In this document: positions 34,906 to 61,734 of the stretch, one piece after another
How positions within the stretch are numbered: the first letter of the stretch is position 1
How the letters are laid out: each line of letters opens with the position of its first letter
From: Chamaesiphon minutus PCC 6605
GTDB taxonomy: Bacteria > Cyanobacteriota > Cyanobacteriia > Cyanobacteriales > Chamaesiphonaceae
Direction: 5' to 3'
DNA: 64,000 nucleotides
Assembly (NCBI RefSeq): GCF_000317145.1
Contig: NC_019697.1
Span: 4,228,886-4,292,885 of the forward strand
The notes under the pieces: generated by a model
What the model was told of the DNA's origin: nothing
The model's database searches: none
The model's input: only the letters and a program-made list of their open reading frames with translations
Translations under genes and position numbers: made by a program

Positions 34906-36777
34906 ATGACAGGTAAACCGTCCAAGCCACCAAAAAGAAAATCGGCTGCGATCGATCGAAATCCAGTCGCGATGCCTCGTGGCGATCGATCGGTACCGCC
35001 AGCCGCCCAAATTCAGAGCGAACGGCAACAGGTGGAATTGTTTGCAGATATTGCCTTTAAGATTCGGCAGTCATTACAGCTATCCGAAATTCTACGGACG
35101 ATCGTGACAGAAGTCCAACTAGTATTAAAAGCCGATCGAGTTTTGATTTATCAGGTGCTGGCTGACGGTACTGGCAAGCCAATTAGCGAAGCCGTATTGC
35201 CGGAATATCAGGCAATTTTGGGGATGGAATTTCCAGAGGAGGTATTTCCACATGAGTACCAACAGCGGTATGCGCGCGGACGCGTCAGAGCGGTGGCGGA
35301 TGTCCGCGATCCGCAGGCGGAAGTGGCCGATTGTCTGGTAGAATTCGTCGAACAGTTTGGGGTCAAAGCTAAATTAATCGTCCCGATTTTGCACAGTTCG
35401 AGCGTCCATCCACCCAGATCGACACCACCCACTCATCCCCTGTGGGGATTGCTGATCGCGCATCAATGCGATCGCCCCCGCCAGTGGGCTGATTTCGAGC
35501 TAGGACTGATGCAACAGCTCGCCGACCAAATTAGCATCGCCCTCGCGCAAGGGGAGTTGTGGGAGCATTTAGAAGAGATTGTGGCGGAAAGAACGGCACA
35601 ACTGCAAGCTGTCAATGCCAGTCTCCAGCAAGAAATCGACGATCGCAAGCAAGCAGAAACAGCCCTGCGCCAGAGTGAGGAGCAGTTGCGACTGATTACC
35701 AATGCGTTACCAGTCTTAATTGCCTATATCGACGATCGCGAGTGCTATCAATTTAACAATCGAGCTTATACGGACTGGTTGGGACAGTCGCTAACGGCGA
35801 TGCACGGTGCCCACATGCGCCAAGTTTGGGGAAATGATTGCTATCAAAGAATGGAACCCTACATTCGGGCGGCTTTGGCAGGGCAAGTCGTCACTTATGA
35901 GAATGAAATCGATCTGATTAATGGTAGTACTCGCTCTGTGAGCATCACTTATATTCCCCACCGCGATCTGGAAGATCGAGTGAGTGGGTTCTTTGCCCTG
36001 ACTAGCGATATCAGCGATCGTAAGGCGATCGAACGGATGAAGGATGAATTTATCTCTGTTGTCAGTCACGAACTCCGCACGCCCCTGACATCCCTCCACA
36101 GTGCCCTCAAAATCTTGGCGACAGGACGCTTGGGGACTCTTTCGAGCGACGGACAACAACTACTGGCGATCGCCGATGAAAATACCGAACGCCTGGTGCG
36201 GCTGGTAAATAGCGTCCTCGATCTCCAACGGATCGAATCGGGAGCTGTAACGATCGAAAAACAAGCGTGTAATGCTGCCGAACTGATGGTGCAAGCAGTA
36301 GAAGCGATGCAACCTATGGCGCAACAGCATGGCATTACCCTAGTCAATCAACCATTAAATGCCAACATTTGGGCAGACGCCGATTATATCCTCCAGACGT
36401 TGACCAATCTAATTAGCAATGCGATCAAATTTTCCGCCCCTGGTGGCAAGGTGTGGCTGACAGTTGACACTCAGCGACAGCCGCTCCCTGTGCCAAAGGG
36501 TCAAAAAATATCCAAATCCAAAGCCAAGAACGCGGCGGAGGTAGTACTATTTCAAGTCCGCGATGAAGGACAAGGAATTCCCACTCATAAATTAGAAAGT
36601 ATCTTTGAAAGATTTCAACAAGTTGATGCCTCCGATTCTCGCAAAAAAGGTGGTACGGGTCTGGGCTTAACAATTTGTCGAAAAATTATCGATCGACATG
36701 AAGGTAAAATTTGGGTGGATAGTAATTTAGGTGTCGGTAGTACCTTCTCGTTCACGTTACCAGCTTCGATCGAATAG
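34906..36777 (+). CDS. rcaE: RcaE-like green/red light sensor histidine kinase
   Basis: A 623-residue hybrid of GAF, PAS and histidine kinase domains, with the architecture of the RcaE cyanobacteriochrome that governs type III chromatic acclimation. GAF domain: residues about 43-215, with the likely bilin-binding Cys143 (EVADCLVEFVEQFGVKAKLIVPIL) and WGLLIAHQC near its end. A coiled-coil linker (ERTAQLQAVNASLQQEI) follows, then a PAS domain about 260-375. HisKA has the phospho-accepting His388 in EFISVVSHELRTPLTSL, and the HATPase has NLISNAIKFS, DEGQGIP and GTGLGLTI. Residue 144 is Leu, where many bilin-binding GAF domains have His, and a Pro/Ser-rich insert (about 164-178) lies in the GAF. 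The response regulators at 36976 and 37413 complete the RcaE-RcaF-RcaC phosphorelay. Identity rests on architecture and context rather than alignment. Confidence 0.85.
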   Translation: MTGKPSKPPKRKSAAIDRNPVAMPRGDRSVPPAAQIQSERQQVELFADIAFKIRQSLQLSEILRTIVTEVQLVLKADRVLIYQVLADGTGKPISEAVLPEYQAILGMEFPEEVFPHEYQQRYARGRVRAVADVRDPQAEVADCLVEFVEQFGVKAKLIVPILHSSSVHPPRSTPPTHPLWGLLIAHQCDRPRQWADFELGLMQQLADQISIALAQGELWEHLEEIVAERTAQLQAVNASLQQEIDDRKQAETALRQSEEQLRLITNALPVLIAYIDDRECYQFNNRAYTDWLGQSLTAMHGAHMRQVWGNDCYQRMEPYIRAALAGQVVTYENEIDLINGSTRSVSITYIPHRDLEDRVSGFFALTSDISDRKAIERMKDEFISVVSHELRTPLTSLHSALKILATGRLGTLSSDGQQLLAIADENTERLVRLVNSVLDLQRIESGAVTIEKQACNAAELMVQAVEAMQPMAQQHGITLVNQPLNANIWADADYILQTLTNLISNAIKFSAPGGKVWLTVDTQRQPLPVPKGQKISKSKAKNAAEVVLFQVRDEGQGIPTHKLESIFERFQQVDASDSRKKGGTGLGLTICRKIIDRHEGKIWVDSNLGVGSTFSFTLPASIE

Positions 36778-36856
36778 TAGGCAGCCCGACATCTAGACTG
36801 CCTACTTAACCTAAGTTGTACCAATAACCACAGCGGTTAGAAACCGCTGCTCGGAG

Positions 36857-36884
36857 TGCAAAGTCCGCGTAGGCGGACTTTGCA
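36857..36884. repeat. Palindrome with AGTCCGCGTAGGCGGACT core (copy 2)
   Basis: TGCAAAGTCCGCGTAGGCGGACTTTGCA is built of 12-base arms around GTAG and corresponds to one arm of the longer palindromes at 22216 and 45084. It lies in the rcaE-rcaF spacer, flanked by smaller hairpins (AGCGGTTAGAAACCGCT, and ACGATTTCAATCGT). The sequence GTAGCAACTTGGGTTAA following at about 36922 also occurs at 10534-10550. Confidence 0.85.
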
Positions 36885-36975
36885 ACAATAGCCACGATTT
36901 CAATCGTTGGTATTCTAGTAAGTAGCAACTTGGGTTAATTATTTCTGCCTTCGGCCTTCTCTCTCGATCGAATTT

Positions 36976-37350
36976 ATGGAGCATAAACGATTATTAACTA
37001 TCGACGATGAAGAAGCTATCCAAATTGTCGTCAAATTTGGGATTAGTATGACGGCAGAATGGGAAGTTTTATCTGCCAGTAACGGTAAAATGGGAATTGA
37101 GACTGCCGAACGCGAACTGCCCGATGCAATTTTATTGGATGTAATGATGCCGGAAATGGATGGCATTGCCACTTTCAAGGCTCTGCAAGCAAATCCAATT
37201 ACTGCTGGAATTCCAGTTATCTTCCTGACTGCTAAAGCCCAGACTGCCGAACGCCGACAGTTTAGCGATCTCGGTGTCAGTGGGACGATCGCCAAACCAT
37301 TTAATTCGCTCGATTTACCCGCTCGGATTGCCAAAATTCTGAATTGGTGA
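36976..37350 (+). CDS. rcaF: RcaF-like single-domain response regulator
   Basis: A 124-residue receiver domain, the same length as Fremyella RcaF. Acidic pocket residues D10/D11 (LLTIDDEEA), phospho-acceptor D55 (AILLDVMMPEMDG), the Thr in IFLTAKAQ and Lys in GTIAKPFN are all in place. No output domain. In chromatic acclimation RcaF shuttles phosphate from RcaE to the Hpt/receiver modules of RcaC. Position between the sensor kinase and RcaC-type gene supports that role. Confidence 0.85.
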   Translation: MEHKRLLTIDDEEAIQIVVKFGISMTAEWEVLSASNGKMGIETAERELPDAILLDVMMPEMDGIATFKALQANPITAGIPVIFLTAKAQTAERRQFSDLGVSGTIAKPFNSLDLPARIAKILNW

Positions 37351-37412: not shown

Positions 37413-39344
37413 ATGAAAATTCTGTTAATAGAAGATGATGACGCATCGATCGCCCTATTAACTCGGAGCCTGACAGCTCAACATCATATTGTCGATGCGG
37501 TCAAAGATGGCGAACTGGGGTGGACCTACGCTTCTACCTTTGACTATCACGCCATCGTGCTCGATATCATGCTGCCCAAGTTAGATGGGATTAGTTTGTG
37601 CCAAAAGTTGCGAAATGCGGGCTATACGACACCGATCTTGCTCCTAACTGCTCAAGATAATACTACCGCCAAGGTACAAGGCTTAGATGCAGGGGCGGAT
37701 GACTACATGGTCAAACCGTTTGAAACTGCCGAACTGATCGCCAGAGTCCGCGCTCTGTTGCGTAGGGGTAGCACCAATCCCCTGCCAATATTGAGTTGGG
37801 GCGATCTGCTTTTAGATTCGAGCAGTTGTGAAGTTACCTACAACGGCCAGCCGCTGAGCCTGACAACCAAGGAATACGACTTGTTAGAGCTATTCTTGCG
37901 GGATACTTATCGCGTGTTTAGTAGCGAAGAAATTATCGATCGATTGTGGTCTTCTGACGATTTTCCCGCAGAGGCGACAGTGCGCTCTCATTTACGGCGG
38001 CTCCGCCACAAACTTCAAGCCGCAGGCGCACCTCCAGACTCGATCGCGACCATTCACGGACGGGGATATCATCTCAAATCACTCCAGCAACTGGAAGAGG
38101 GGGAGAGGGGTGGAGGGGGAGACGGCGGGACTGAGCATGGTGGTTCTGAGTCAACCACAACACGCCAACAGCAGCAATATTTGGCCTTTCTCCAGGAAAC
38201 ATGGGTAAAGACCAAACCTCAATGTCAGGAACGACTAGTCGAACTTAGGGCGATCGTCGATCGATTGGTGGTGGAAACTAGCAGCGATTTAGAACGACAA
38301 CAAGCACACCAAATCGCGCACAAATTAATTGGTACCCTCGGCGTATTTGGCTTGACGGCGGCAATGTCGATTGCCCGCGAGATCGAAGTTTTACTCGATC
38401 TCGATACTTCACTCGCTCCGACGGAGGCGAAGAAACTGCCAACTTTGGTAGCCGAACTAAGCCGGAATATCGAAGCCGCAGCACCTACTCAGCCACCGCC
38501 AACCACAACTGTGGACACAGCTTCAGATCGATCGTCATTGCCCTTGCTATTACTGGTCGATCTCCCGTCAAACCTAACTCAGCCCCTGACAACGCTCGCC
38601 ACACAGCGTGGCTGTCGCACTGTTACTGTGGCGACGATTGCTGATGCCGAAAATTATCTGACTACCGCCATTAACGAGCAGTTGCCAACAGCGATTTTAA
38701 TCGGTCTCGGAATCGAGCGGCAAGAGTCGATGCTCCATAGGAGCGGCTACGCCAACAGCGAGCGTCCGCTGTTCGATTTTCTCGAGCGCGTCGCACGGCA
38801 GTTTCCCGCTCGCTCCGTACTTGTACTGAGCGAGCGTGACGAATTACAACAGCGGTTAGAGATCGTCAGACATGGTGGCAAATTTTTGGGCACTAGCGGA
38901 TTGACAACAGCGCAAATCTTTATAGCGGCTACTTCCTTATTCCAGCCTGCCAATGCAATGGTGAAAGTAATGGTTGTCGATGACGATCTCGATTGGTTGC
39001 ACGCGCTCCCCAAATTATTAGCACCTTGGGGGCTGAAATTAACTACTCTTGCCGATCCGCTCCAGTTTTGGACGATATTGCAATCGGTGCAACCCGACGC
39101 GCTCGTGTTAGATATCAAAATGCCAGAAATTAACGGTTTTGAATTGTGTCAAGTCTTGCGTAGCGATCCGCACTGGCGACACTTACCGATTTTATTTTTG
39201 ACGGCAGCAAATGACCCGATCGCCCAGCAGGAAGCTTTTAACGTTGGTGCCGACGATTATCTCTGCAAACCGATCGGTGGTGGCGAACTGGCTCGACGCA
39301 TCCGCCACCGTCTGGCGCGACTGCACGCCGCACAGCTCGCCTGA
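37413..39344 (+). CDS. rcaC: RcaC-like DNA-binding response regulator (receiver-wHTH-Hpt-receiver)
   Basis: A 643-residue multidomain regulator close in length (651) and order to RcaC. It has an N-terminal receiver with D51 (HAIVLDIMLPKLDG), the same position as the key Asp51 of RcaC, and an OmpR-type winged helix (about 125-225, LTTKEYDLLELFLRDTYRVFSSEEIIDRLW). An acidic/Gly-rich linker is followed by an Hpt domain around H303 (HQIAHKLIGTLGVFGLTAAM) and a C-terminal receiver with D567 (ALVLDIKMPEINGFE). A degenerate receiver-like segment lies between Hpt and the last receiver. RcaC binds L-box direct repeats to raise red-light genes (PC2, pcyA) and lower green-light genes (cpeC); candidate L boxes are at 56486, 56243 and 48268. 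It ends nine bases before the convergent cpeZ. Confidence 0.88.
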   Translation: MKILLIEDDDASIALLTRSLTAQHHIVDAVKDGELGWTYASTFDYHAIVLDIMLPKLDGISLCQKLRNAGYTTPILLLTAQDNTTAKVQGLDAGADDYMVKPFETAELIARVRALLRRGSTNPLPILSWGDLLLDSSSCEVTYNGQPLSLTTKEYDLLELFLRDTYRVFSSEEIIDRLWSSDDFPAEATVRSHLRRLRHKLQAAGAPPDSIATIHGRGYHLKSLQQLEEGERGGGGDGGTEHGGSESTTTRQQQQYLAFLQETWVKTKPQCQERLVELRAIVDRLVVETSSDLERQQAHQIAHKLIGTLGVFGLTAAMSIAREIEVLLDLDTSLAPTEAKKLPTLVAELSRNIEAAAPTQPPPTTTVDTASDRSSLPLLLLVDLPSNLTQPLTTLATQRGCRTVTVATIADAENYLTTAINEQLPTAILIGLGIERQESMLHRSGYANSERPLFDFLERVARQFPARSVLVLSERDELQQRLEIVRHGGKFLGTSGLTTAQIFIAATSLFQPANAMVKVMVVDDDLDWLHALPKLLAPWGLKLTTLADPLQFWTILQSVQPDALVLDIKMPEINGFELCQVLRSDPHWRHLPILFLTAANDPIAQQEAFNVGADDYLCKPIGGGELARRIRHRLARLHAAQLA

Positions 39345-39352
39345 GTAGTTAT

Positions 39353-39967
39353 CTATTGCCGATCGCTATTAAATTTTGTCGTCATCTCTAGCCGCGATAA
39401 AGCACTAGTCGCTGCTTCTTTGACGTATGAATCTACCGCTTCATCTGCCAAGAGAGTATTAATAGCCGTCAAACAGCGCGGATCGGCGATCGCGCTAAGG
39501 GCATTGACAATCGACATTGCTAACGCTGGATTATCGGTAGTTTGCAATGCTTCGATCAAAATATCCACGATCGGCACACCAATGACACCCATTGCCATCA
39601 CTGCGGCAATATTAACCACCGGATTTGGATCTTGAAGCGCAGTCTTTAAACCCGCGATTCCCTGTGGGGGGAACGGCTCGTCAGGATAATTAATCGCTAC
39701 CTGCGCCAGTGCTTTGGCAGCACTCCCACGCACGGTAACATTTTCACTATTGAGTAGAGCTTCAACCAATGGCGGCACCGTATCGTGCCCGATCGCACCC
39801 AATGTTTTTACTGCCGCCCGCCGATAAGTAGTATCCTCATCGTCGAGAATATCCATCAATCGCGGAATAGTAATCTCGTCAGGATTATCGACTAGTTCCC
39901 ACATCGCTCGATCGCGCATGTGAGGATTTGGGTGTTTGAGTTGTTGTAAACTTTCTTCTGTAGACAT
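39353..39967 (-). CDS. cpeZ: Phycoerythrobilin lyase subunit CpeZ
   Basis: A 204-residue HEAT/Armadillo-repeat protein of the CpcE/F-CpeY/Z group. Repeats are visible from residue about 10 on (LQQLKHPNPHMRDRAMWELVDNPD, PRLMDILDDEDTTYRRAAVKTLGAIGHDTVPPLVEALLNSENVTVRGSAAKALAQVA). CpeZ works with CpeY in attaching phycoerythrobilin to the alpha subunit of PE (Cys82), possibly as chaperone. Length near 205 is as expected. It follows cpeY after 112 nt and both follow cpeBA, the order known from Fremyella. Confidence 0.88.
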   Translation of the reverse strand: MSTEESLQQLKHPNPHMRDRAMWELVDNPDEITIPRLMDILDDEDTTYRRAAVKTLGAIGHDTVPPLVEALLNSENVTVRGSAAKALAQVAINYPDEPFPPQGIAGLKTALQDPNPVVNIAAVMAMGVIGVPIVDILIEALQTTDNPALAMSIVNALSAIADPRCLTAINTLLADEAVDSYVKEAATSALSRLEMTTKFNSDRQ

Positions 39968-40079: not shown

Positions 40080-41372
40080 TCAATCCTGCTCATCCTTAAA
40101 TCCTGTAAATCCCGATCTGGCTTTTGCTTTTACTAACCAATCGGCATCATCGGCTAAAATTTCATATCCACTAAGATCGCCCAACTTTTCCAATGCCATC
40201 AGTGCGGCATATTTAAGATCCCAAATTTTAGTCTCCAGACTCTTATGTAATTCGGGAATCGCACGGACATCGCCAATTTCCGCTAGCGCGATCGCGGCGG
40301 CGGCGCGAGATTTTTGGAATTGTGGTTGGGTATTGTGGAGAGCTTCAATTAATAGATCGTATGCTGGGGCGTGTTTCAACCAGCCCATGATTTTCATGAC
40401 ATGGAAATGGGCACCATAATCTTGATTAGCTTCTTCCTCGTAGGCAGCAAATAACGCCGCAGGAGCGGTATCTGGATAGTTCTCGACGATCGTTTGGGTG
40501 GCTAGATAAGCCTTCCCAAAGTCAGTTTCGTATAAGTTGCGAATCAGCGCGGGGAGTGCGGGTACTCGATCGTAACTGTGTACCAGCTTTAAATCTTGGG
40601 GTCGATCGCGTAATGACTGTTCTAAATAGGGTTGGATCTGGATAAATGTCAGCGAACCATCGCCAATTCCTGCTTCGGCAAGCGTCCGAATCCCCCGCAG
40701 CCGAAATACTAAGGATACCGGACAACTAGCAATATCGGGAATCGCTGCATAATACCGCGCATCCATCAAATCTTGAATCGACAATCGCCGCCCCAACACA
40801 TTCTGATTTTGCAGCATGGCAACTACCTGCGGCATCTGACTATAGTCCCCAGTCAGACGGCAAACTCCGGCAATGGCAGCACTCGCGATCGGCGGATCTT
40901 CGTCTTTAACAAATTTACTTATAGATGGCACCGCAGGCTGATAATTTAACTTAGTCAGCGTGTGAATCATCACCCGATAACTTTGTCGTGGCTTTGCCAG
41001 TAACTTGGTTAATTCTGCCAAAATTTCGGGATCTTGGGTGCCAATTTCGCCAATTGCCCACGCTGCATTTTCGACTGTATAGCAGTCGTCATCTTGGAGA
41101 CAGACGCGAATGGCGGGGAGAGCTGCTGTTGCTTGCAGTCGCCCCAATATTTCGATCGATTTACGGCGCACGATCTTGTTATCCAGACTCGGATCGGTTT
41201 GTTCCAGTGCGCGCATCAGCGCGGCGATCGATCGATCCGTCCGAAAGTTAATTAAATGAGACGCCGCAATGTACCGAGAATCATTTTCGGAAACCAGAGC
41301 CTGTGGCGTATCTAAAATCTCGATCGCCCGATCTTCTGTCAGATTAAATAAGCTAAAAAAGCGGTTATCCAT
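40080..41372 (-). CDS. cpeY: Phycoerythrobilin lyase CpeY
   Basis: A 430-residue HEAT-repeat bilin lyase; the start at 41372 (MDNRFFSLFNLTEDRAIEIL) gives the family length near 430, while upstream in-frame codons run through non-coding leader. Recognisable repeats are DRSIAALMRALEQTDPSLDNKIVRRKSIEILGRLQATAALPAIRVCLQDDDCYTVENAAWAIGEIG. The conserved middle part of CpeY is VLGRRLSIQDLMDARYYAAIPDIASCPVSLVFRLRGIRTLAEAG. The enzyme ligates phycoerythrobilin to Cys82 of CpeA. It belongs to the cpeBA-cpeYZ transcription unit. Confidence 0.92.
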   Translation of the reverse strand: MDNRFFSLFNLTEDRAIEILDTPQALVSENDSRYIAASHLINFRTDRSIAALMRALEQTDPSLDNKIVRRKSIEILGRLQATAALPAIRVCLQDDDCYTVENAAWAIGEIGTQDPEILAELTKLLAKPRQSYRVMIHTLTKLNYQPAVPSISKFVKDEDPPIASAAIAGVCRLTGDYSQMPQVVAMLQNQNVLGRRLSIQDLMDARYYAAIPDIASCPVSLVFRLRGIRTLAEAGIGDGSLTFIQIQPYLEQSLRDRPQDLKLVHSYDRVPALPALIRNLYETDFGKAYLATQTIVENYPDTAPAALFAAYEEEANQDYGAHFHVMKIMGWLKHAPAYDLLIEALHNTQPQFQKSRAAAAIALAEIGDVRAIPELHKSLETKIWDLKYAALMALEKLGDLSGYEILADDADWLVKAKARSGFTGFKDEQD

Positions 41373-41612: not shown

Positions 41613-42140
<528 letters not shown>

Positions 42141-42177: not shown

Positions 42178-43015
<838 letters not shown>

Positions 43016-43271: not shown

Positions 43272-44189
43272 ATGAGCAACCAACTCAACACCCCAGCAAC
43301 ATCTGGGAATGATGCAAATCTCCAGTTTCAAGCAGAGACAGACGCATTACTCGAAAAAGTCAGCGAACAAGTAGATTTAGAAATTTTCGATCCTCACGAT
43401 GAAGAATTGCTCAAAGATTTAGTCGAACGACTCGGAGATCCGCGCGGCATCACCCGATTGCGGGTGGCAACAACTTTGGGCGAAATTGGCGAATCGGCAA
43501 CGCCATTTTTGATAGAGGCTTTAGCAAATCATCAAAATGTAGTCGTGCGCCGTGCTGCGGGCAAAACTTTAACCATTATTGCCGATCCGCGTGCCGTACC
43601 CGCACTAGTACACGCACTGCTCAATGATGAAGATACTGTCGTCCAAGGTTCTGCGGTGGGCGCATTAGCACGGATGGGTGAGGCTTCAGTGCCACTGTTG
43701 CTGGAAATTTTGGGTTCGCCAGAGCATCCAGAGAGTACCAAAGGACACGTTGCTTGGGCATTATCCTTTATCGGCTCGGAGGCGAAGACTTACCTTTATC
43801 GCGAAATTGACTCTGATTCGCCCGCAATTCGAGCGGCGGTAGTGGGGGCGATTACTAAAATTGCTCAGGAAAATCCCGAAGAACAGATCGCCTTTGACTT
43901 ACTGATTAGAGCTACTAAAGATGCCGAAGCAATGGTGCGCTGCGAAGCTGCTGCCGCATTGGGCAATCTTGCCTATCGTCCAGCACGAGTCCCGCTCCTA
44001 GAGCTACTGGAACATCCCGACTGGGAAAGTCGCAAATCGGCAGTATTAGCATTGATGAAGCTCGGCGACAAACAAGCGATCGCCGACTTAGAAGCCGCAG
44101 CAGGGAAGGAATCTGAAGCTTCAGTTCAAGCAGTCATCAAGCTGGCAATCTCGCAACTTGCCAAAAAAATGGATGTAGATGAGTGGTAA
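43272..44189 (+). CDS. cpeF: CpeF-like HEAT-repeat bilin lyase
   Basis: A 305-residue HEAT-repeat protein of the CpcE/CpeY superfamily. After a variable N-terminus (to about 45) come repeats LVERLGDPRGITRLRVATTLGEIGESATPFLIEALANHQNVVVRRAAGKTLTIIADPRAVPALVHALLNDEDTVVQGSAVGALARMG. Length and location in a PE gene set fit CpeF, which in Fremyella attaches the doubly linked phycoerythrobilin to Cys48/Cys59 of CpeB, but MpeV-like or other lyase relatives cannot be excluded. It starts 34 nt after the small coiled-coil gene and overlaps or abuts the DUF3598 gene. Confidence 0.7.
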   Translation: MSNQLNTPATSGNDANLQFQAETDALLEKVSEQVDLEIFDPHDEELLKDLVERLGDPRGITRLRVATTLGEIGESATPFLIEALANHQNVVVRRAAGKTLTIIADPRAVPALVHALLNDEDTVVQGSAVGALARMGEASVPLLLEILGSPEHPESTKGHVAWALSFIGSEAKTYLYREIDSDSPAIRAAVVGAITKIAQENPEEQIAFDLLIRATKDAEAMVRCEAAAALGNLAYRPARVPLLELLEHPDWESRKSAVLALMKLGDKQAIADLEAAAGKESEASVQAVIKLAISQLAKKMDVDEW

Positions 44190-44191
44190 AA

Positions 44192-51509: not shown

Positions 51510-51830
51510 ATGATAGATTGTATGGTCAAGATTGATGTGACAAATATGTCATCTCACTCGCCGATCCGATCTGGATCGTACTCAATGAAAGTTCCGTTTG
51601 CTTCCCTATCGCGGACGATGCAATTCATTCATCGCTCTGGCGGTAAGGTAGTTGAAGTTACCAAACTATCAGCAACTACTACTTTAACCGAGCTACCACA
51701 CCTCGCTACCCCAGTCTATACCTCGACAGTTAACTCCAAGCCGCAGTCTCCAGCAGCAACTGTCGATCGTACCGAGCCGCAATCGACCCAAGATCGCTCG
51801 AAACGGGGTGGCAAACACCATAAAAAATAA
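51510..51830 (+). CDS. Small CpcD-domain linker with Ser/Thr/Pro-rich basic tail
   Basis: A 106-residue protein from the ATG at 51510 (MIDCMVKIDVTNMSSHSPIRSGSYSMKVPFASLSRTMQFIHRSGGKVVEVTKLS), preceded by TTTTGGAG. The first 55 residues are a CpcD-type rod-cap domain (compare cpcD at 59800: VQVPYNRMNEKMQQILRMGGKIVSIQPL). The remaining 50 are Thr/Ser/Pro-rich and end with the basic run DRSKRGGKHHKK. Single-domain CpcD-type linkers end PC rods; one located between cpeE and cpeS should cap or modify PE rods. The extension and basic end are unusual for a cap linker and could contact nucleic acid, membrane or another linker (speculative). Confidence 0.75.
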   Translation: MIDCMVKIDVTNMSSHSPIRSGSYSMKVPFASLSRTMQFIHRSGGKVVEVTKLSATTTLTELPHLATPVYTSTVNSKPQSPAATVDRTEPQSTQDRSKRGGKHHKK

Positions 51831-51876
51831 ATAGCTCACACAAATTTCGGCTGGTAGGTTTGGGTACTCAATATTG

Positions 51877-52413: not shown

Positions 52414-52517
52414 TATCAGAGCTTTAACATTTTGTGCGTCTCGACTATCTCTCCTCCTTTTAGATAATTTTTTAATAAATATTGACGATTTAATCGATTT
52501 ATCATCCACCGTCAATT

Positions 52518-53123: not shown

Positions 53124-53135
53124 GGTGGCAACAAT

Positions 53136-53489
53136 ATGAATATCTCGATCGAAAGTCAAACTGCAATTATTAATAAAGTGAGTATTCTGCCGCCAATTGC
53201 TCAAAAAAAGATGCAATGTTGGATTCGGAGCAGACATCTCATTTATTCTGGTAATTTTTTTATATATGAAACAGTTGATTTTAGTGCTGTCGAACGATTT
53301 GGTGACTGTATCGAAGCATTGGGGGGTGCTGTAATTGCAGTTAGTTCGGTCGGCAAAGTTTGGATGGGCGATCGCCGACAAGTCATTTTATATCGATCGA
53401 AAGCAAGTTTGCAAACACCCCATCACGATCTCCATCATTACTGGATTAAGTATGGCAGTTTTCGTACCAGATTTGACGAACGGGTCTAA
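53136..53489 (+). CDS. cpeR: Phycoerythrin gene activator CpeR
   Basis: A 117-residue small protein (MNISIESQTAIINKVSILPPIAQKKMQCWIRSRHLIYSGNFFIYETVDFSAVERFGDCIEALGGAVIAVSSVGKVWMGDRRQVILYRSKASL). Size, place at the end of cpeCDEST and the segment ERFGDCIEALGG fit CpeR, which is needed for transcription of cpeBA in green light. It has been noted to resemble phosphatase 2C in part, but no catalytic motif is seen here. Through it the RcaC-controlled cpeC operon should in turn control cpeBA. Confidence 0.85.
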   Translation: MNISIESQTAIINKVSILPPIAQKKMQCWIRSRHLIYSGNFFIYETVDFSAVERFGDCIEALGGAVIAVSSVGKVWMGDRRQVILYRSKASLQTPHHDLHHYWIKYGSFRTRFDERV

Positions 53490-53585: not shown

Positions 53586-54317
53586 ATGTATCAACCTTTT
53601 CTCAATCACTTAGAGCAATCCTTATTTCAACGCTTCGATCTTCAAAGTCGGCTAATTCCCGCTGGACTGGAAGCGCAAGTGAGCGAACGCGGCAAAAATC
53701 CAGCTTCGATTAAAAGTTGGTGTTATGAATGTCCTGAGTTTCGGAAAATCCGCTACACCTATATCGATGCTGGTGCGAGTGCTCAGATTTTTAATAGCGT
53801 CATTTATCCCAGTCATAATTCTGAATTGCCATTGCTGGGCATTGACTTCCTGTCTTTTGGACAAGTCAAAAATTTAATTGTAATGGACTTTCAACCGTTA
53901 TTTCAGGATGAAGCTTATCTAACTAAGTATATTCATCCTTTGAAAAAATTACACGAAAAATATCCAGATTTAGCTCAAAATCTAGAAATGAAGTTCTACG
54001 ATGCAAATCAATATTTTTCCAAATATCTATTGTTTGCTAAAACCGATCCAGAGACTGTCAAGACGCGAGTATTTGAAGCCTTTCAAGATTATCTCAATCT
54101 CTATTGGGAGATGCTATCTACTAGTGAATTATTGACCGATCCATCGGATATTCAGCGGATTGCCAAAGCTCAAAGAGATTACGACCAATATAGTGCCGAT
54201 CGCGACCCCGCCTCTGGCTTATTTAGTAGCTATTTCGGTCATGAATGGTCGGAAAAATTCTTGTACGGATTTTTGTTTGAAGATGCAATGCCCCTATCTG
54301 CTACTGTTGCCAAATAA
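53586..54317 (+). CDS. pebA: 15,16-dihydrobiliverdin:ferredoxin oxidoreductase
   Basis: A 243-residue ferredoxin-dependent bilin reductase that reduces biliverdin IX-alpha to 15,16-dihydrobiliverdin. PebA features: SWCYECPEFRKIRYTYIDAGASAQIFNSVIYPSHNSELPLLGIDFLSFGQVKNLIVMDFQPLFQD, with the Asp of YIDAG and LLGID near the bilin pocket. C-terminal DRDPASGLFSSYFGHEWSEKFLYGFLFE is family-typical. Directly upstream of pebB and downstream of cpeR, so phycoerythrobilin supply is linked to PE expression. Confidence 0.95.
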   Translation: MYQPFLNHLEQSLFQRFDLQSRLIPAGLEAQVSERGKNPASIKSWCYECPEFRKIRYTYIDAGASAQIFNSVIYPSHNSELPLLGIDFLSFGQVKNLIVMDFQPLFQDEAYLTKYIHPLKKLHEKYPDLAQNLEMKFYDANQYFSKYLLFAKTDPETVKTRVFEAFQDYLNLYWEMLSTSELLTDPSDIQRIAKAQRDYDQYSADRDPASGLFSSYFGHEWSEKFLYGFLFEDAMPLSATVAK

Positions 54318-54405
54318 TCTTTAGGAACAACTAGTAAGCCATATCCCCGACTTCTCCACGAAGTTGGGGATATTAAATAGCAATTATCAATTATCAATTA
54401 TTAAT

Positions 54406-55158
54406 ATGACACTATATCAACCATTTCTAGACTATGCGATCGCATTATTGCAAGAGCGATTGCCATTACAGTCTTACCCGATTCCCAGTGGATTCGAGTA
54501 CAAATCAGCGATCGTCGGTAAAGGCAAACAAGAAAACGAAGTCGTAACTACCAGTTACGGCTATCAGTCCCCTAAGCTGCGGCAAATCCGCGCCGCACAC
54601 GTCCAGGGTGGTAGTGCGCTTCAAGTGTTGAATTTTGTGATTTTCCCGCACCTGAACTACGACTTACCCTTTTTTGGTGCAGATTTAGTCACGCTTCCTG
54701 GCGGACACTTAATCGCCTTGGATATGCAACCATTATTTCGGGACGAGCGCGAATATCAAGCCAAATATAGCGATCCCATCTTGCCAATTTTCGAGACCTA
54801 TCGCCAACATCTCCCGTGGGGTGGTGATTTCCCTGAAGAAGCTAGTGCCTTTTTCTCGCCTGCTTTTCTCTGGACGCGACCAAAAGAAAATGAAGCCGTC
54901 GAAACCCATGTATTTGAGGCATTTAAGGCGTATCTCCAGGCATATTTAGATTTTGTCGATCGGGCCGAACCCGTTACCGATCCGCAAGCTTTAGCCGCAA
55001 TTAAACAATCGCAGTTGCGCTATCTACGCTATCGAGCAGAAAAAGATCCCGCTCGCGGTATGTTCAATCGCTTCTATGGTTCTGAGTGGACGGAAGAGTA
55101 CATTCATGGCTTTTTATTCGACCTAGAACGCAAGCTCGAAACCGCTGCATCTGTCTGA
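54406..55158 (+). CDS. pebB: Phycoerythrobilin:ferredoxin oxidoreductase
   Basis: A 250-residue bilin reductase that converts 15,16-dihydrobiliverdin to phycoerythrobilin. Start at 54406 ([19 protein letters not shown]) with the in-frame upstream part being leader. PebB features: [62 protein letters not shown] and [28 protein letters not shown]. PebA and PebB pass the intermediate between them, and their genes are adjacent as usual. pcyA, the competing enzyme for phycocyanobilin, faces it on the opposite strand. Confidence 0.95.
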
Positions 55159-55245: not shown

Positions 55246-55989
55246 TTAACAACTCACAACCAAAGCTTCGTAATCGAACAGCATGGTAGTCATATAGCGA
55301 TCGGCCCATTCGACACCAAATGATTTTTCTAGGACGCGCCGCGTCTTATCATTTTGTTGCTGGCGATCGCAATAATACTGGTGTCCGGCAGAAATCTGGG
55401 CAATCTCGGCAATAGCGGTTGTCGGTGGAGTGCTGCTGGCAATTTGGCAATGAATCGCGAGCATCGACAGCACATAATCCAGAAAAGCCGTCTCTTCAGT
55501 GGCATTGGTGGGACGCACGAATAAACAATAATCTGAGAAAATATCTCCCCAGGTGGGTAAATCTCGCACTTGAGAGAAGCTGATGGCGGGGAGTTGGCGC
55601 AGTGGGAGTTGATATCGCGCGGGCAAAGATCGATTGCGATTTACTGGCGATAAATCGACAATTGCGGCACTAATTGTCCCTCTACCGCAGACGATATCTG
55701 CCCCAAAAATCGGCAGATCGCGATCGGGGTGTGGAAACATTACACAGTGGAGGATATCTAAATTCTGGCCTACCTGAGCCAGTTCTAGATGCAACTTGCG
55801 AAATTGGGGGGTTTGATGGCATTTATTTTCAATAACTAAGCGTTCGCCCTCCAAGCTGCCTTCGACATAGCCTAAATCGTGGGGAATTTGGTAAGGAGAC
55901 AGGTCTAGATGCTCTTGCCACGTCCGTTCGATGCGATCGGCTAGTTTCGCGATGAGGGGATGTTGTTTGGTACGGAGCGAGATCGACAT
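55246..55989 (-). CDS. pcyA: Phycocyanobilin:ferredoxin oxidoreductase
   Basis: A 247-residue bilin reductase that makes phycocyanobilin from biliverdin in one four-electron process. PcyA features: MSISLRTKQHPLIAKLADRIERTWQEHLDLSPYQIPHDLGYVEGSLEGERLVIENKCHQTPQFRKLHLELAQVGQNLDILHCVMFPHPDRDLPIFGADIVCGRGTISAAIVDLSP. The catalytic His (MFPHPDRDLPIFGADIV) and Asp (GAD) are present. Convergent to pebB and divergent from cpcB; in Fremyella pcyA is red-light induced via RcaC, and a candidate L box in the proper orientation lies at 56243. Confidence 0.95.
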   Translation of the reverse strand: MSISLRTKQHPLIAKLADRIERTWQEHLDLSPYQIPHDLGYVEGSLEGERLVIENKCHQTPQFRKLHLELAQVGQNLDILHCVMFPHPDRDLPIFGADIVCGRGTISAAIVDLSPVNRNRSLPARYQLPLRQLPAISFSQVRDLPTWGDIFSDYCLFVRPTNATEETAFLDYVLSMLAIHCQIASSTPPTTAIAEIAQISAGHQYYCDRQQQNDKTRRVLEKSFGVEWADRYMTTMLFDYEALVVSC

Positions 55990-56242: not shown

Positions 56243-56260
56243 CGTGCAGATTACGTGCAA
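56243..56260 (-). promoter_or_regulatory. Candidate L box for pcyA
   Basis: On the minus strand TTGCACG-TAAT-CTGCACG is a direct repeat of seven bases with a four-base spacer, matching the L-box pattern TTGCACA-N4-TTGCACA at 11 of 14 positions. It reads toward pcyA, about 254 bases upstream of its start. The repeat is internally consistent (TGCACG twice), which argues against chance. Confidence 0.6.
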
Positions 56261-56485: not shown

Positions 56486-56503
56486 CTGCACAAAAGTTGC
56501 ACA
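56486..56503 (+). promoter_or_regulatory. L box (RcaC binding site) upstream of cpcB
   Basis: CTGCACA-AAAG-TTGCACA matches the Fremyella L box TTGCACA-N4-TTGCACA at 13 of 14 positions with the exact four-base spacer. It lies 127 bases before the cpcB start, in forward orientation. In Fremyella this element makes the PC2 operon red-light inducible through RcaC. Confidence 0.82.
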
Positions 56504-56629: not shown

Positions 56630-57148
56630 ATGTTAGACGCTTTTACTAAAGTAGTTGCTCAAGCAGATGCCCAAGGTACATTTGCTAGTGATTCTCAGAT
56701 TAATGCTCTTAAAGCAATGGTAGCTGAGGGCACCAAACGGATTGATGTTGTCAACCGGATTACTTCCAACTCCTCTGCAATCGTCGCTAACGCGGCACGC
56801 GCACTGTTCGACGAACAACCCAACCTGATCGCACCAGGTGGTAACGCCTACACCAACCGTCGCATGGCAGCTTGCTTGCGCGACATGGAAATCATTTTAC
56901 GCTACGTTACTTACGCAACATTTACTGGCGACGCATCCGTCCTCGACGATCGTTGTTTGAATGGCTTGCGCGAAACTTACCTGGCTCTGGGCGTTCCTGG
57001 TGGTTCCGTTGCTACTGGTGTTCAAAAAATGAAAGAAGCTGCAATTGCAATTGCTAACGATCCCAACGGTATCACTAAAGGTGACTGTAGCTCTTTGATG
57101 GCTGAATTAAGCGGTTACTTCGATCGCGCAGCTTCTGCTGTCGGTTAA
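56630..57148 (+). CDS. cpcB: Phycocyanin beta subunit (PC2-type)
   Basis: A 172-residue C-phycocyanin beta chain. Bilin sites Cys82 ([46 protein letters not shown]) and Cys153 ([27 protein letters not shown]). Asn72 (the gamma-N-methylasparagine site) is in [11 protein letters not shown]. First gene of an operon with the order B-A-H-I-D that matches the red-light-inducible cpcB2A2H2I2D2 of Fremyella, and it carries an L box upstream. The bilin on Cys153 would be attached by CpcT (61123). Confidence 0.97.
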
Positions 57149-57212
57149 TTTATATCGATTTCTCGTTACCTTTTGCACGAATACAATCATTTATTGAGAG
57201 ATTAAGTAAACT

Positions 57213-57701
57213 ATGAAAACTCCTTTAACCGAAGCTGTAGCTACCGCTGATTCCCAAGGTCGTTTCTTGAGTTCTACCGAACTGCAAGTTGCTTTTGGTC
57301 GCATTCGTCAGGCAACTGCTAGCCTTGATGCTGCTAAAGCTTTGGCTGGTAAAGCTCAAAGCTTGGCTGATGGTGCTGCAAATGCCGTTTATCAGAAATT
57401 CCCCTACACCACTACCATGCAGGGCAACAACTATGCTTCTACCCCTCGCGGTAAAGCTAAGTGCGCTCGTGACATCGGTTACTACGTTCGGATGATCTCC
57501 TACTGCCTGATTGCTGGTAGCACTGGCCCGATGGATGACTACCTGATTGGCGGTTTGGCTGAAATCAACTCCACCTTCGACTTGTCTCCTAGCTGGTATG
57601 TTGAAGCTCTCAAATATGTTAAAGCTAACCACGGTCTCTCTGGTGACTCTGCAAGCGAAGCTAATTCCTACATCGATTACGCAATTAACGCCTTAAGCTA
57701 A
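57213..57701 (+). CDS. cpcA: Phycocyanin alpha subunit (PC2-type)
   Basis: A 162-residue C-phycocyanin alpha chain with the single phycocyanobilin at Cys84 ([42 protein letters not shown]). It starts [31 protein letters not shown] and ends [10 protein letters not shown], both typical. It follows cpcB after 64 nt. A CpcE/F-type lyase pair needed for this site is not present in the window. Confidence 0.97.
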
Positions 57702-57815: not shown

Positions 57816-58634
57816 ATGACAAGCTCTATGGCCGCAAAACAGTTGGGATTCGAGCCGTTTGCTGGCGCATCGCCAGTAGAACTACGACCCCACCCGTCGG
57901 AAGATGATGTTCGGGCTGTAATTTGGGCTGCCTATCGGCAGGTCTTCGGCAACGACCATATTATGGAAAGCGAACGACTAACCAGTGCCGAATCGCTCCT
58001 GCGCCAGGGCGATATGAGCGTGCGAGATTTCGTCCGCGCATTGGCACAATCAGAACTATATAAACAAAAATTTTTCTATTCAACTCCCCAAGTGCGGTTC
58101 ATCGAACTGAACTTCAAGCACTTATTGGGTCGCGCTCCAGCTAATGAAGCCGAAATTACCGAGCATGTCAATCGGTTTATCGATCGTGGATACATCGCCG
58201 AAATCGACTCCTACATCGATTCGATGGAATATCAAGACAGCTTTGGTGATGCGACAGTGCCTTACTATCGTGGTTTTGCTACCCAACGGGGTCAAACTAG
58301 TGTGGGCTTCACTCGGATGTTCCAACTGTATCAAGGTTATGCCAACAGCGATCGCGCTCAAGGCAATAACAAAGGTGCTGCTTTGACCGCAGAACTCGGT
58401 CGAAATACCGCCACGGCAATTCGCACTCCCAATTTGGGACGCAGTTTAGCTGGCACTATTAAAGGCGATCGCGAGCAATTATATCGCGTGCGGCTCGTCC
58501 AAACCAACCGCATTAACAGCCCGCAAATTCGGCGCAGTTCTGGCGAGCTACTCGTTAGCTACGAACAACTTTCTGCTACCCTCCAACGCCTCAATCAGCG
58601 TGGGAGTCGGGTAGTGAGTATCGATCGAGCTTAG
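57816..58634 (+). CDS. Phycocyanin rod linker (CpcH2/CpcC-type), first
   Basis: A 272-residue PC rod linker: linker domain (about 24-160: [62 protein letters not shown], then [46 protein letters not shown]) and a C-terminal CpcD-like domain ([49 protein letters not shown]). By order in the operon it corresponds to cpcH2. It joins PC hexamers in the distal rod. Confidence 0.9.
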
Positions 58635-58635
58635 A

Positions 58636-58670
58636 TTTAGGCTTTAGGCTTTAGGCTTTAGGCTTTAGGC
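58636..58670. repeat. Heptanucleotide tandem repeat (TTTAGGC)5
   Basis: Five perfect units directly follow the stop of the first PC linker gene. The heptamer is the reverse complement of the CCTAAAG array before glyQ at 29986. Confidence 0.9.
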
Positions 58671-58682
58671 AAGAGGGTATGA

Positions 58683-58797
58683 ATGGGTAATGAATGGGCA
58701 GCGTCGCTGCTTTGTTGACGAACAAGGACGATCGTGGTCTTTCGCTCTTACCCATTACCCATCCACCCATCTATCCATCCACCCATCCACCCATCTA
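58683..58797. repeat. Interspersed repeat (copy 2) and CATCCACC-type low-complexity tract
   Basis: 58683-58760 corresponds to the repeat at 14445-14520, with GGGTAA and TTACCC at its ends. A CCATCCACCCATC low-complexity tract follows up to the ribosome site AAGGAG of the next linker gene. Confidence 0.6.
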
Positions 58798-58810
58798 AGG
58801 AGTAAAACCC

Positions 58811-59677
58811 GTGCCAATTACCACCGGAGCTTCTCGTTTAGGCACCAGTGCCTATAGCGATATTAAGCCAATCGAATTACGCACCAATTGGTCGCCAGCA
58901 GATGCCCAAATTATTATCAATGCTGTCTACCGTCAGGTATTAGGTAACGACTATCTGATGCAAAACGAACGACTATTGGGACTCGAATCCGTGCTCTGTA
59001 ACGGTCAAATTACCGTGCGAGATTTCGTGCGCGGTGTCGCCAAATCTGAGTTGTACAAAAACAAATTTTTGTACTCATCTTTTCAGACGCGGACGATCGA
59101 ATTAAACTGCAAACATTTACTAGGTCGCGCACCTTATGATGAATCTGAAGTAATCGAACATCTCGATCGCTATCAAGAAAAGGGTTACGATGCCGATATC
59201 GATTCTTATATCGATTCTCTAGAATATAACGAGAATTTTGGCGACTCGATCGTTCCTTACTATCGTAGCTTTACATACCAAGTGGGTCAAAAAATGCCCG
59301 GATTTACTCGGATGTTCCGACTCTATCGCGGTTATGCCAATAGCGATACATCGCAAGTTGCTGGTGCCAAGTCCCGCTTGGCTGGCGAGCTGGGTAGCAA
59401 TACTACTTCGGCAATTATTCCGCCTTCTGGTAGCAACGATGGATTTGCTTATCAAGGTGCTGCTGGTAGCACGACGCCCTCGCGCGCGTTCGGTCGTTCG
59501 ACAATTGGTGAATCAGACCGCCTGTATCGCATTGAAGTATCGAGTATTAGTCTGCCACGCTATCCTCGCGTCCGCCGGAGCAACAAAGAGTTTATTGTTT
59601 CCTACGACCAACTCAACAGTACGCTCCAGTACATCAACAAGATTGGTGGCAAAGTCGCTAGCGTTACCGTAGCCTAA
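58811..59677 (+). CDS. Phycocyanin rod linker (CpcI2/CpcC-type), second
   Basis: A 288-residue PC rod linker starting with GTG after TCTAAGGAGTAAAACCC. Linker domain [66 protein letters not shown] and C-terminal CpcD-like domain [48 protein letters not shown]. By order it corresponds to cpcI2. The N-terminal [18 protein letters not shown] extension resembles those of cpcC linkers. Confidence 0.9.
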
Positions 59678-59799
59678 CTTCGGTGTGTTAACTCTTTAAT
59701 TTTAGTTAATCGTGGTGTGGGAATGCGCTATAAAGACCCATTCTCACACATCGCCTGATTGATACTCGCCACTTTTTCACGATCGCAGGAGCAAATAAA

Positions 59800-60057
59800 A
59801 TGTTGGGACAATCAGCTTTTACCAGAGGTTCGACCGCGACAGCCAATAATCGAATTTTTGTTTATGAAGTAGCTGGATTGCAGCAAAACGACGATAGCCA
59901 ATCTAACGTGCAGATTCGGACTAGTGCGAATACCTTCGTACAAGTTCCTTACAATCGCATGAATGAAAAGATGCAGCAAATTTTGCGCATGGGTGGCAAA
60001 ATCGTCAGTATTCAACCACTAGGTGCAAAACCCCCAGCGGCGGAATCCGAATCTTAA
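59800..60057 (+). CDS. cpcD: Phycocyanin rod-capping linker CpcD
   Basis: An 85-residue CpcD, the small linker that ends PC rods. MLGQSAFTRGSTATANNRIFVYEVAGLQQNDDSQSNVQIRTSANTFVQVPYNRMNEKMQQILRMGGKIVSIQPL is family-typical over its whole length. Last gene of the cpcBAHID operon; good AGGAG site upstream. Confidence 0.95.
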   Translation: MLGQSAFTRGSTATANNRIFVYEVAGLQQNDDSQSNVQIRTSANTFVQVPYNRMNEKMQQILRMGGKIVSIQPLGAKPPAAESES

Positions 60058-60127
60058 TCGATCGCGATCCAGTTCTTGTAGATGTTTAATAGTTACCATG
60101 TGGGTCGATTTAACAATCGACCCATTT

Positions 60128-61057
60128 TTATGAAAATTCAGACCAACCAGTGCGATAATGACCGTAATTACAGACTTGAGGATTGAGGATTTCGGTAAGA
60201 ATTTCTAGAGATTCTACCAGTCTGGGGCCGGGGCGATTAAAGTAAGCATTACCATCGGTAATGTAGACTCGATCTTGTTTGACTGCTGCGAGCTGTTGCC
60301 ACTGAGGATGTTTAGTTAACGGTTGTGCTTCGATGCGAGTGCGATCGAGATCGAAACCACAGGGCATGAAAATAATTGTATCGGGATCGGCAGCTACCAA
60401 TTCATCCCAACTAATCCGAGGTGAATGTTGTCCGGTAACGCCACCAATCGGTTTGCCACCAGCCATCTCGACTAATTCGGGAATCCAATTACCAGCCAAC
60501 ATTAATGGATCTGTCCACTCAATGCAGGCAACTTTTGGGAGTGGAGATTGAAGATTTTGACACTGGGTTTGACAGATTTTAACTCGCTTTTGCAGAGTTG
60601 CAACGATCGGTTGCCAATCGACATTTAAAGTTTCGCCAACACGTTGAATATCCGCCCAGACATCTGCGATCGTGTCGGGTTGAAGTGAGATAATTTGAGG
60701 GTGACTATTAGTTAATTTCGCCACAGCTTTTTCTACTTCCGGAAAGCTGACCGCACAAACGTCACACTGGTCTTGAGTAATAATGTGAGTGGGCTGCAAT
60801 TGGGTCAACACATCGAGATTAATTTCATAAATACTCATGGCGGCGGCGAGTAATTTATCTACTTCCTGATGAATCTCGCCACTCGGCTGATGGATAGATA
60901 GTCGTGCCGAAGTACAGACAGCTCGATCTTTAATTTCAGGGGGATAATCACATTCATGCGAAATACCCACCAATCGATCGGTCAGTCCCAAACAAGCGAT
61001 AATTTCTGTGGCACTAGGCAAGAGTGAAATCAGCCGCAGCGGTGCTAATGGAGTCAT
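60128..61057 (-). CDS. BtuF-like cobalamin/metal-chelate binding protein
   Basis: A 309-residue protein with the periplasmic-binding helical-backbone fold: RLISLLPSATEIIACLGLTDRLVGISHECDYPPEIKDRAVCTSARLS, then THIITQDQCDVCAV and ISWDELVAADPDTIIFMPCGFDL. This fits the cobalamin-binding BtuF/CobW-neighbour group. No signal peptide or lipobox is present, so it may be cytoplasmic, a common variant in cyanobacteria. It is divergent from cpcT with about 65 nt between, and no cobalamin riboswitch could be placed there. An odd guest between cpcD and cpcT. Confidence 0.75.
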   Translation of the reverse strand: MTPLAPLRLISLLPSATEIIACLGLTDRLVGISHECDYPPEIKDRAVCTSARLSIHQPSGEIHQEVDKLLAAAMSIYEINLDVLTQLQPTHIITQDQCDVCAVSFPEVEKAVAKLTNSHPQIISLQPDTIADVWADIQRVGETLNVDWQPIVATLQKRVKICQTQCQNLQSPLPKVACIEWTDPLMLAGNWIPELVEMAGGKPIGGVTGQHSPRISWDELVAADPDTIIFMPCGFDLDRTRIEAQPLTKHPQWQQLAAVKQDRVYITDGNAYFNRPGPRLVESLEILTEILNPQVCNYGHYRTGWSEFS

Positions 61058-61122
61058 AAATTGTGAAAATAGGATCGTGCAGTTCCAGTAAAATCGACAG
61101 TAATTAACATTAGACCTCCACT

Positions 61123-61734
61123 ATGACTCATTCTACCGATATTCCTACCTTGGCGCGCTGGATGGCTGGCGATTTTAGCAATCAAGCGCAAGCAATTGAG
61201 AACCCACCATTTTTCGCGCATATTCGAGTGTGTATGCGTCCGCTACCCTACGAGTTGTTCGATGGAGTGAGCTTATTTCTCGAACAGGCTTATGACTTTA
61301 TGCTCCAGAATCCTTATCGCTTAAGGGTGCTAAACTTTGTTGTCGTCAACGAGCGCATCGAAATCGAGCATTATACGCTAGATCCTGAAGCCGAATTTTT
61401 CGGAGCCGCTCGTAACCCCGAACAGCTCCAGCAAATCACCCGCGATAATATCATCAAAATGCCAGGTTGCACGATGATTACCGAATGGACTGGCAGTACG
61501 TTTAAGGGCTATGTGGAGCCTGGAAAGGGCTGCAAGGTGACTCGAAATGGCAAAGATACTTATTTGGACAACAGCTTTGAAATCTCGCCTGGACACCTAA
61601 TTAGCCTCGATCGCGGTCGCGATATTGCCACCGACGAACATGTCTGGGGATCGATCGCGGGGCCATTTGAGTTTACTCAAAAAGTGAGTTTTGCCGATGA
61701 AGTACGGGTCGAAAAAGTTAATTCAATAAATTAG
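61123..61734 (+). CDS. cpcT: CpcT-type phycocyanobilin lyase
   Basis: A 203-residue T-type lyase: LARWMAGDFSNQAQAIENPPFFAHIRVCMRPLPYELFDGVSLFLEQAYDFMLQNPYRLRVLNFVVVNERIEIEHYTL, GYVEPGKGCKVTRNGKDTYLDNSFEISPGHLISLDRGRDIATDEHVWGSIAGPFEF. CpcT attaches phycocyanobilin to Cys153 of CpcB. It is similar to, but clearly distinct from, CpeT at 52518; the place next to cpc genes supports the PC assignment. Confidence 0.88.
   Translation: MTHSTDIPTLARWMAGDFSNQAQAIENPPFFAHIRVCMRPLPYELFDGVSLFLEQAYDFMLQNPYRLRVLNFVVVNERIEIEHYTLDPEAEFFGAARNPEQLQQITRDNIIKMPGCTMITEWTGSTFKGYVEPGKGCKVTRNGKDTYLDNSFEISPGHLISLDRGRDIATDEHVWGSIAGPFEFTQKVSFADEVRVEKVNSIN

Follow-up and report, generated by a model that had tools for sequence, protein, structure and literature searches.

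A probable type 3 chromatic acclimation regulon within one 27-kb locus of Chamaesiphon minutus PCC 6605

Gene content and the predicted sensor relay

The window analyzed here is a stretch of 64,000 nucleotides from the cyanobacterium Chamaesiphon minutus PCC 6605 (positions 4228886-4292885 of a 6.28-Mb contig; the genome comprises 6.76 Mb on three contigs). Its nearest named match is Chamaesiphon polymorphus, whose RcaE GAF domain is 97% identical. A first-pass annotation had placed a sensor, relay, regulator, binding sites, pigments, bilin synthesis and lyases within about 27 kb of the window, and this is correct. We predict with high confidence that the locus is a complete regulon for chromatic acclimation of type 3 (CA3), the kind governed by RcaE, RcaF and RcaC (RcaEFC). 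Its main genes, and the L boxes to which RcaC would bind, are as follows.

34906..36777, plus strand: rcaE, cyanobacteriochrome kinase with GAF-PAS-HisKA-HATPase domains, 623 amino acids (Pfam domains; best PDB matches 8k9o and 7ckv, RcaE)
36976..37350, plus strand: rcaF, single receiver, 124 amino acids (profile match, phosphoacceptor residue)
37413..39344, plus strand: rcaC, receiver-wHTH-Hpt-receiver, 643 amino acids (profile matches, relay residues)
39353..39967, minus strand: cpeZ-like HEAT lyase subunit (weak profile match; adjoins cpeY in relatives)
40080..41372, minus strand: cpeY lyase (725 bits against a cut-off of 600; likely start at residue 47 of the reading frame)
41613..42107, minus strand: cpeA, phycoerythrin alpha (profile match)
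42178..42732, minus strand: cpeB, phycoerythrin beta (profile match; start moved to residue 24 of the reading frame)
48268..48285, minus strand: weak L box upstream of cpeC, opposite direction, 11 of 14 specified bases (profile score 8.9, rank 4)
48707..53489, plus strand: cpeC-cpeD-cpeE-orf148 (CpcD-like)-cpeS-cpeT-cpeR (reading frames, profiles; cpeR by position)
53586..55158, plus strand: pebA-pebB, 96 bp past cpeR (profile matches)
55246..55989, minus strand: pcyA (profile match)
56243..56260, minus strand: L box upstream of pcyA, same direction, three mismatches to the consensus (profile score 25.1)
56486..56503, plus strand: L box upstream of cpcB, same direction, one mismatch (profile score 13.7, expected 0.12)
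56630..57701, plus strand: cpcB-cpcA, the island phycocyanin (profile matches)
57816..60057, plus strand: two rod linkers (cpcH, cpcI) and cpcD (profiles; cpcD by position)
61123..61734, plus strand: cpcT lyase (Pfam)

Open reading frames and profiles agree with the first-pass annotation on three consecutive genes with these domain orders and lengths (623, 124 and 643 amino acids), and D51 of RcaC is present. The other genes it named were also found. Its gene list needed correction in that the cpe operon contains an extra frame of 148 amino acids, pcyA lies on the minus strand, divergent from cpcB, and cpeB and cpeY are shorter, with likely starts (about 42732 and 41372, from profile starts) inside longer reading frames.

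CpeY, CpeA, CpeB, PebA, PebB, PcyA, CpcB and CpcA pass their NCBIfam equivalog cut-offs, and the CpeS and CpeT families are above the Pfam threshold. CpeR (117 amino acids) has no family match in NCBIfam, Pfam or PHROGs and is named from its place after cpeT and from homologues at that place in relatives. The names of CpeZ, CpeF and the linkers come from weaker profile matches, position and conserved neighborhoods. The gene at 59800-60057 (85 amino acids) is presumably cpcD, given its position. The extra frame, orf148 (51384-51830), encodes a CpcD-like domain and lies 7 bp after cpeE, between cpeE and cpeS; 6 of the 10 Chamaesiphon-family genomes read carry a homologue in this operon, at 24-76% identity. 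Its product is possibly a phycoerythrin rod-capping linker.

The RcaE GAF domain is closest in the PDB to chains 8k9o (E value 3e-73) and 7ckv (8e-64), both solved RcaE-type GAF domains whose letters are identical wherever both align; an alignment to RcaE, which the first-pass annotation had proposed, supports the name. Glu112, Cys143, Leu144 and Lys156 are kept, at the spacing of the solved domain. We take these positions, the leucine mark aside, to be the bilin cysteine and the protochromic triad. Leucine following the bilin cysteine is a mark of RcaE and CcaS (PMC9415938, section 3.1). A genome-wide search gave 28 GAF matches counting RcaE, and the next-best GAF is 48% identical. All four residues also occur in one of eight loci checked among the 27 other GAF matches, so the residues alone do not identify RcaE; overall identity does. 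This second four-residue GAF (L113; contig C1, 4585500-4586051) lies in an open frame of 1279 amino acids and is possibly a further green/red sensor, judging by these residues.

Predicted relay residues are H388 of RcaE, D55 of RcaF, and D51, H299/H303 and D567 of RcaC. D55 and the RcaC residues plausibly make up a phosphorelay, and the RcaC Hpt domain scores slightly under the Pfam cut-off (23.8 against 24.6 bits). RcaC has 109 matches in the genome. Three related genomes, G003, G006 and G007, encode RcaC-like proteins that are 39-40% identical over nearly the full length (contigs G003:C124, G006:C127 and G007:C32), each beside an RcaF-like receiver, and these pairs may constitute a second Chamaesiphon phosphorelay. 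A dispersed repeat with a palindrome (36798-36946) lies at the end of rcaE and between rcaE and rcaF; when a 2.1-kb query was searched against the genome, this repeat accounted for 72 of the 75 matches. The repeat may affect rcaF expression.

L boxes and the predicted color switch

We take the L-box consensus to be TTGCACA-N4-TTGCACA. Sites were scored with a profile built from 56 training sites with at most two mismatches, all from relatives outside Chamaesiphon. The pcyA box, 253 bp upstream of its gene, has the top profile score of the window, a score reached in none of 100 random windows. The cpcB box, 126 bp upstream of cpcB, is the sole one-mismatch match to the consensus in the 6.76-Mb genome, which has no exact match. 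Third in the window is an unrelated site at 22126 (score 9.1), followed by the cpeC box, 421 bp upstream of cpeC. The genome has two further cpcB sets, 82% identical to the island cpcB, and neither of these phycocyanin operons has an L box (best profile scores -0.7 and -7.0). Autoregulation found no support: there was no site at three or fewer mismatches before rcaE in the seven loci scanned, and no good profile score before rcaE in the window, G003, G007 or G008. L-box-like matches before rcaF (14 of 63 at up to three mismatches, 2 at up to two) were set aside as probable coding conservation because they lie 71-477 bp upstream, mostly within the end of rcaE, with largely the same letters across genomes.

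The orientation of the boxes recurs in relatives. All 28 true cpcB genes scanned carry a same-direction box at up to two mismatches (the scan had 30 matches; two without a box, 33% and 40% identical, were excluded as not cpcB). Eleven of 12 cpeC genes beside RcaE carry an opposite box and none a same-direction box; a partial paralogue in locus L067 is also without one. No box precedes cpeC beside other GAF sensors (0 of 5). For pcyA, 18 of 33 have their own same-direction box and one an opposite box, which is the box of the divergent cpcB (L073); several pcyA genes without a box sit behind cpc on the same strand. A reversed-motif control at up to two mismatches gave 1 of 30 for cpcB and none for cpeC or pcyA. 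These comparisons yield a sequence rule: a box pointing with the gene would mean on in red light, and one pointing against it on in green light.

The Chamaesiphon family is a natural experiment: an inverted box on phycoerythrin genes largely tracks the presence of RcaC. All 11 family genomes searched have cpeC. RcaC at no less than 61% identity, complete or in fragments, occurs in six counting the window (5 of 10 relatives), leaving out the RcaC-like proteins at 39-40%; next to the rcaC of G004, neither rcaE nor rcaF was seen. The opposite cpeC box is present in 5 of these 6 genomes, clearly in G001, G003, G004 and G008 (4 of the 5 other RcaC-bearing relatives) and weakly in the window, and in none of the 5 without RcaC (Fisher p 0.015, uncorrected for kinship). 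This contrast makes gain and loss of color control directly testable. In G001, G003 and G008, as in the window, the divergent pcyA-cpcB region carries both boxes.

Regulation of cpeC from an opposite L box is known in Fremyella diplosiphon (Tolypothrix PCC 7601), and the Fremyella side of our comparison is largely general background. The locus resembles that system in domain orders, phosphorelay and GAF residues, L boxes with their orientation rule, and targets. It differs in that all targets, including the island cpc, pcyA, cpeBA and pebAB, are in one locus, pebAB is behind cpeR, the cpe operon has the extra CpcD-like frame, and pcyA and cpcB diverge, each with its own box. RcaC is described as activating pcyA and cpc2 at L boxes and, in PCC 7335, as repressing pebAB from an opposite, more distant L box (PMC8256508).

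CA3 identity follows from the key residues of the sensor, the domain architecture, the oriented L boxes and the two other phycocyanin sets without L boxes. On this evidence C. minutus very probably re-colors its antenna with the island. In red light, RcaE with a bilin on Cys143 would autophosphorylate, and phosphate would move through RcaF and the RcaC Hpt domain to RcaC, which would bind the L boxes. The same-way boxes before cpcB and pcyA would then switch on island phycocyanin and phycocyanobilin synthesis, and the opposite box before cpeC would switch off cpeCDE-orf-STR and perhaps pebAB behind it, which may share the cpe transcript because it begins only 96 bp past cpeR. Loss of CpeR, whose role is known from Fremyella, would also stop cpeBA. 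In green light RcaC would be unphosphorylated and the pattern reversed. The separate phycocyanin sets without L boxes would supply constant inner rods. Such a mechanism is ordinary for the known CA3 kind; its completeness in one place is unusual. A contiguous 27-kb locus with nearly everything for red/green antenna switching would help in reconstructing CA3 in a laboratory cyanobacterium.

Several results weigh against this interpretation. The cpeC box at 8.9 is weak by itself: chance alone would give about one such site per 64 kb, and among 600-bp stretches of the window its score falls above the 95th percentile but below the 99th. A consensus search of the window at up to three mismatches does not exceed chance (9 found, 5.35 expected); only the profile, the placing and direction of the boxes, and the relatives bear the argument. 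Genome-wide, two or fewer mismatches give 23 matches, most of them untied to known targets, where the reversed pattern gives 7; in relatives, stray sites at this level occur at cpeB (1 of 3), pebA (1 of 8), apcL (1 of 14), cpcH (2 of 24) and rcaF (2 of 63). G007 has RcaEFC and no box in the 600 bp before cpeC (a 77% complete draft, with the genes on separate contigs), and a site opposite cpeB in G001 (17.0) is missing from the window. The names of CpeR, CpeZ and the linkers depend on position and on weak or absent profiles.

The alternative that survives best, though we consider it unlikely, is that the sensor system is intact and only phycocyanin and pcyA are color-controlled, with phycoerythrin control weak or lost through decay of the cpeC box. 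The score of 8.9, against 17.1 for the corresponding site of G001, the nearest relative, would fit such decay. However, the place and orientation of the box are conserved in G001 and G003, both with stronger boxes there, and the pcyA boxes of G003 and G008, which also read TACACA in the second half, still score 18.7 and 20.4. Far less probable is a CA2-like or non-color two-component locus whose RcaE and RcaC merely resemble the Fremyella proteins: the genome is rich in GAF kinases and OmpR-type regulators (the 28 and 109 matches above), one other GAF with all four key residues among them, but the best matches and residues of the GAF, its distance from the next-best GAF of the genome, and L boxes at the expected genes in conserved orientation all speak for the CA3 system.

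Clustering in other genomes

That Rca genes cluster with their targets is not new. In Pseudanabaena SR411, shown to change both phycoerythrin and phycocyanin as CA3, rcaEFC lies near phycoerythrin genes and genes for synthesis of the bilins of both pigments (PMC11377992). This strain has seven of the eight modules counted below; no cpc was read there, as the contig ends about 4 kb after the rcaE start, near rcaC. In CcaS/CcaR clusters of the CA1, CA2 and CA7 types the sensor likewise sits next to the genes under its control, for pigments or linkers (PMC12461855); unlike the window, they have one regulator, CcaR, with a G box, and neither RcaF nor RcaC. For two glacier Chamaesiphon drafts, PMC8941735 reports ccaS homologues, not rcaE.

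Among the best 80 of 138 GAF loci, 69 have a full-length RcaE by our thresholds; rcaF is present in 62 of these and rcaC, within 4 kb, in 49. For a wider look 30 of these RcaE genomes with longer contigs, a selection from those available, were chosen, and 29 of them, L048 not included, were read at about 30 kb on each side where contigs allowed; some stretches stop early where a contig ends, and a few short ends were left out. At least one pigment or bilin gene lies near rcaE in 24 of the 29. The modules found near rcaE were rcaF (28), rcaC (23), pcyA (15), cpcBA (14), cpeBA (8), pebAB (8), cpeC (6) and cpeR (6). The synteny comparison that the first-pass annotation had suggested thus finds clustering common and the full set of eight modules in none of the 29, while the window has all eight in 23 kb. 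Pseudanabaena SR411 and Elainella saxicola have seven, lacking cpcBA.

The earlier statement that the Fremyella loci are scattered is doubtful judging from its closest sequenced kin, Calothrix membranacea FACHB-236, whose RcaE GAF shares 98.9% identity with the solved domain. There the distance from rcaEF to cpeC is 0.9 kb and that to cpeBA at most 16 kb, and the roughly 30 kb read on each side of rcaE contained no rcaC. We found no literature on PCC 6605 together with chromatic acclimation and phycoerythrin. Hirose 2019 reportedly surveyed chromatic acclimation gene clusters in 445 genomes and may already list the Chamaesiphon genome.

Origin of the joined locus and its neighbors

G003 and G008 have the order rcaEFC-pcyA-cpcBA-linkers (split between two contigs in G008), and their phycoerythrin blocks lie on contigs other than these; cpcT lies before rcaE in G007 and after pebB in G003. 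Of the Chamaesiphon genomes read, the window has the joined order, and so does its nearest relative, in pieces on separate contigs: one stretch of G001 runs from rcaC to cpeS2 and another from the pentapeptide gene to cpcT, and the flank as far as rcaE comes from C. polymorphus L009. G001 and L009 are likely one genome. The left flank is shared with C. polymorphus, with rcaE at the same place. Because the phycoerythrin block stands apart in other Chamaesiphon, the joined state is probably derived, the block having come, on the parsimonious view, between rcaC and pcyA in the sub-lineage of the window; the earlier idea of an ancestral module is not supported. The reverse would be an older joined state that split in other Chamaesiphon.

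For the trees, RpoC1 was found (limit 1e-50) in 9 of the 11 family genomes, not in G003 or G007, and 37 RpoC1 rows were used. Forty-four loci and the window were eligible for the RcaC, PcyA and CpcBA trees, and thresholds left 35, 28 and 26 rows, with Moorena among the RcaC dropouts. These and the RpoC1 tree are quick searches; the RcaE tree is a careful one. The tested groups were drawn from taxonomy and the RpoC1 tree, after the quick RcaE tree had been seen, and carry what we take to be their order names.

RpoC1 places 13 Nostocales in one clade (support 100). The RcaE data reject a Nostocales clade (approximately unbiased test, p 1.9e-5), as do RcaC (10 rows, 1e-8), PcyA (6 rows, 1.3e-4) and CpcBA (5 rows, 1.5e-5), with partly different rows. 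Calothrix MO_167 joins Pleurocapsales in the trees of RcaE, RcaC, PcyA (support 89-91, not starred) and CpcBA. Moorena groups with both wherever it is represented, in three of these trees, and Mastigocoleus joins Pleurocapsales in those of RcaC and CpcBA. The order cpc-pcyA-rcaEFC is common to Calothrix MO_167, Xenococcaceae and Moorena; Mastigocoleus has cpc followed by rcaEFC. Tree conflicts and shared gene order together suggest that a core block of rcaEFC, pcyA and cpc was transferred between cyanobacterial orders in other lineages. Ancient duplication and loss is the alternative for these conflicts, against which 28 of the 29 genomes have a single close RcaE. RcaE also rejects the grouping of Chamaesiphon, Moorena and Pleurocapsales seen in the RpoC1 tree and makes Pegethrix, on a long branch, the sister of Chamaesiphon (support 91, unstarred). 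The Chamaesiphon RcaE copy may thus have been acquired, though the tree points to no donor.

The first-pass annotation had called the island possibly transferable. This fits the core block in other lineages; there is no sign that the complete island of the window moved as one piece. Arrival of all 27 kb in Chamaesiphon as a single piece seems improbable to us: the conflict between RcaE and RpoC1 placement and the patchy RcaC of the relatives would suit it, but the parts are separate in G003, G007 and G008 and GC is near-flat (46% in most island parts, 50% in rca). A mobile island is likewise not supported by this GC profile, nor by a tRNA, as there is none in the window; integrase genes were not searched for across it. 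Rather, with a little less than even confidence, we suggest that the color switch is a plug-in. The core block (rcaEFC, pcyA, cpc2 and L boxes) would have passed between orders, and resident phycoerythrin genes would have been wired to it later through an inverted L box and here also docked beside it, making the window the most complete product among the genomes read.

Left of the island, 32999-34366 holds a transposase-like frame (DDE match just under the Pfam cut-off) and a pentapeptide frame. Nothing in C. polymorphus L009 matches the interval 32163-34449, whose flanks are 0.5 kb apart in that genome. Between cpeB and cpeC lie the following genes.

43272..44189, plus strand: HEAT-repeat lyase, CpeF candidate (profile match; near pebAB in several relatives)
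44183..45028, plus strand: DUF3598/BFA1_C protein (Pfam)
45198..45773, plus strand: AplA-like lone phycobiliprotein with a cysteine at the bilin-site motif, C107 (profile matches, residue check)
45835..46413, minus strand: second CpeS-family lyase (Pfam)
46543..47394, minus strand: pentapeptide-repeat protein, recurrent in phycoerythrin clusters (homologues in relatives)
47545..48012, plus strand: DUF2656 protein, recurrent near cpeC (Pfam; relatives)

The names CpeF, for the HEAT-repeat lyase, and AplA, for the lone phycobiliprotein, are our assumption. AplA-like homologues lie in or beside Rca and phycoerythrin clusters at many loci, and near cpeC in G002, G005 and G006, which lack RcaC. AplA is described as a photosensor with no assigned function (PMC2246261). 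The pentapeptide-repeat and DUF2656 proteins recur in phycoerythrin clusters of several genera, and the rod regions of marine Synechococcus also carry a pentapeptide gene (PMC2246261).

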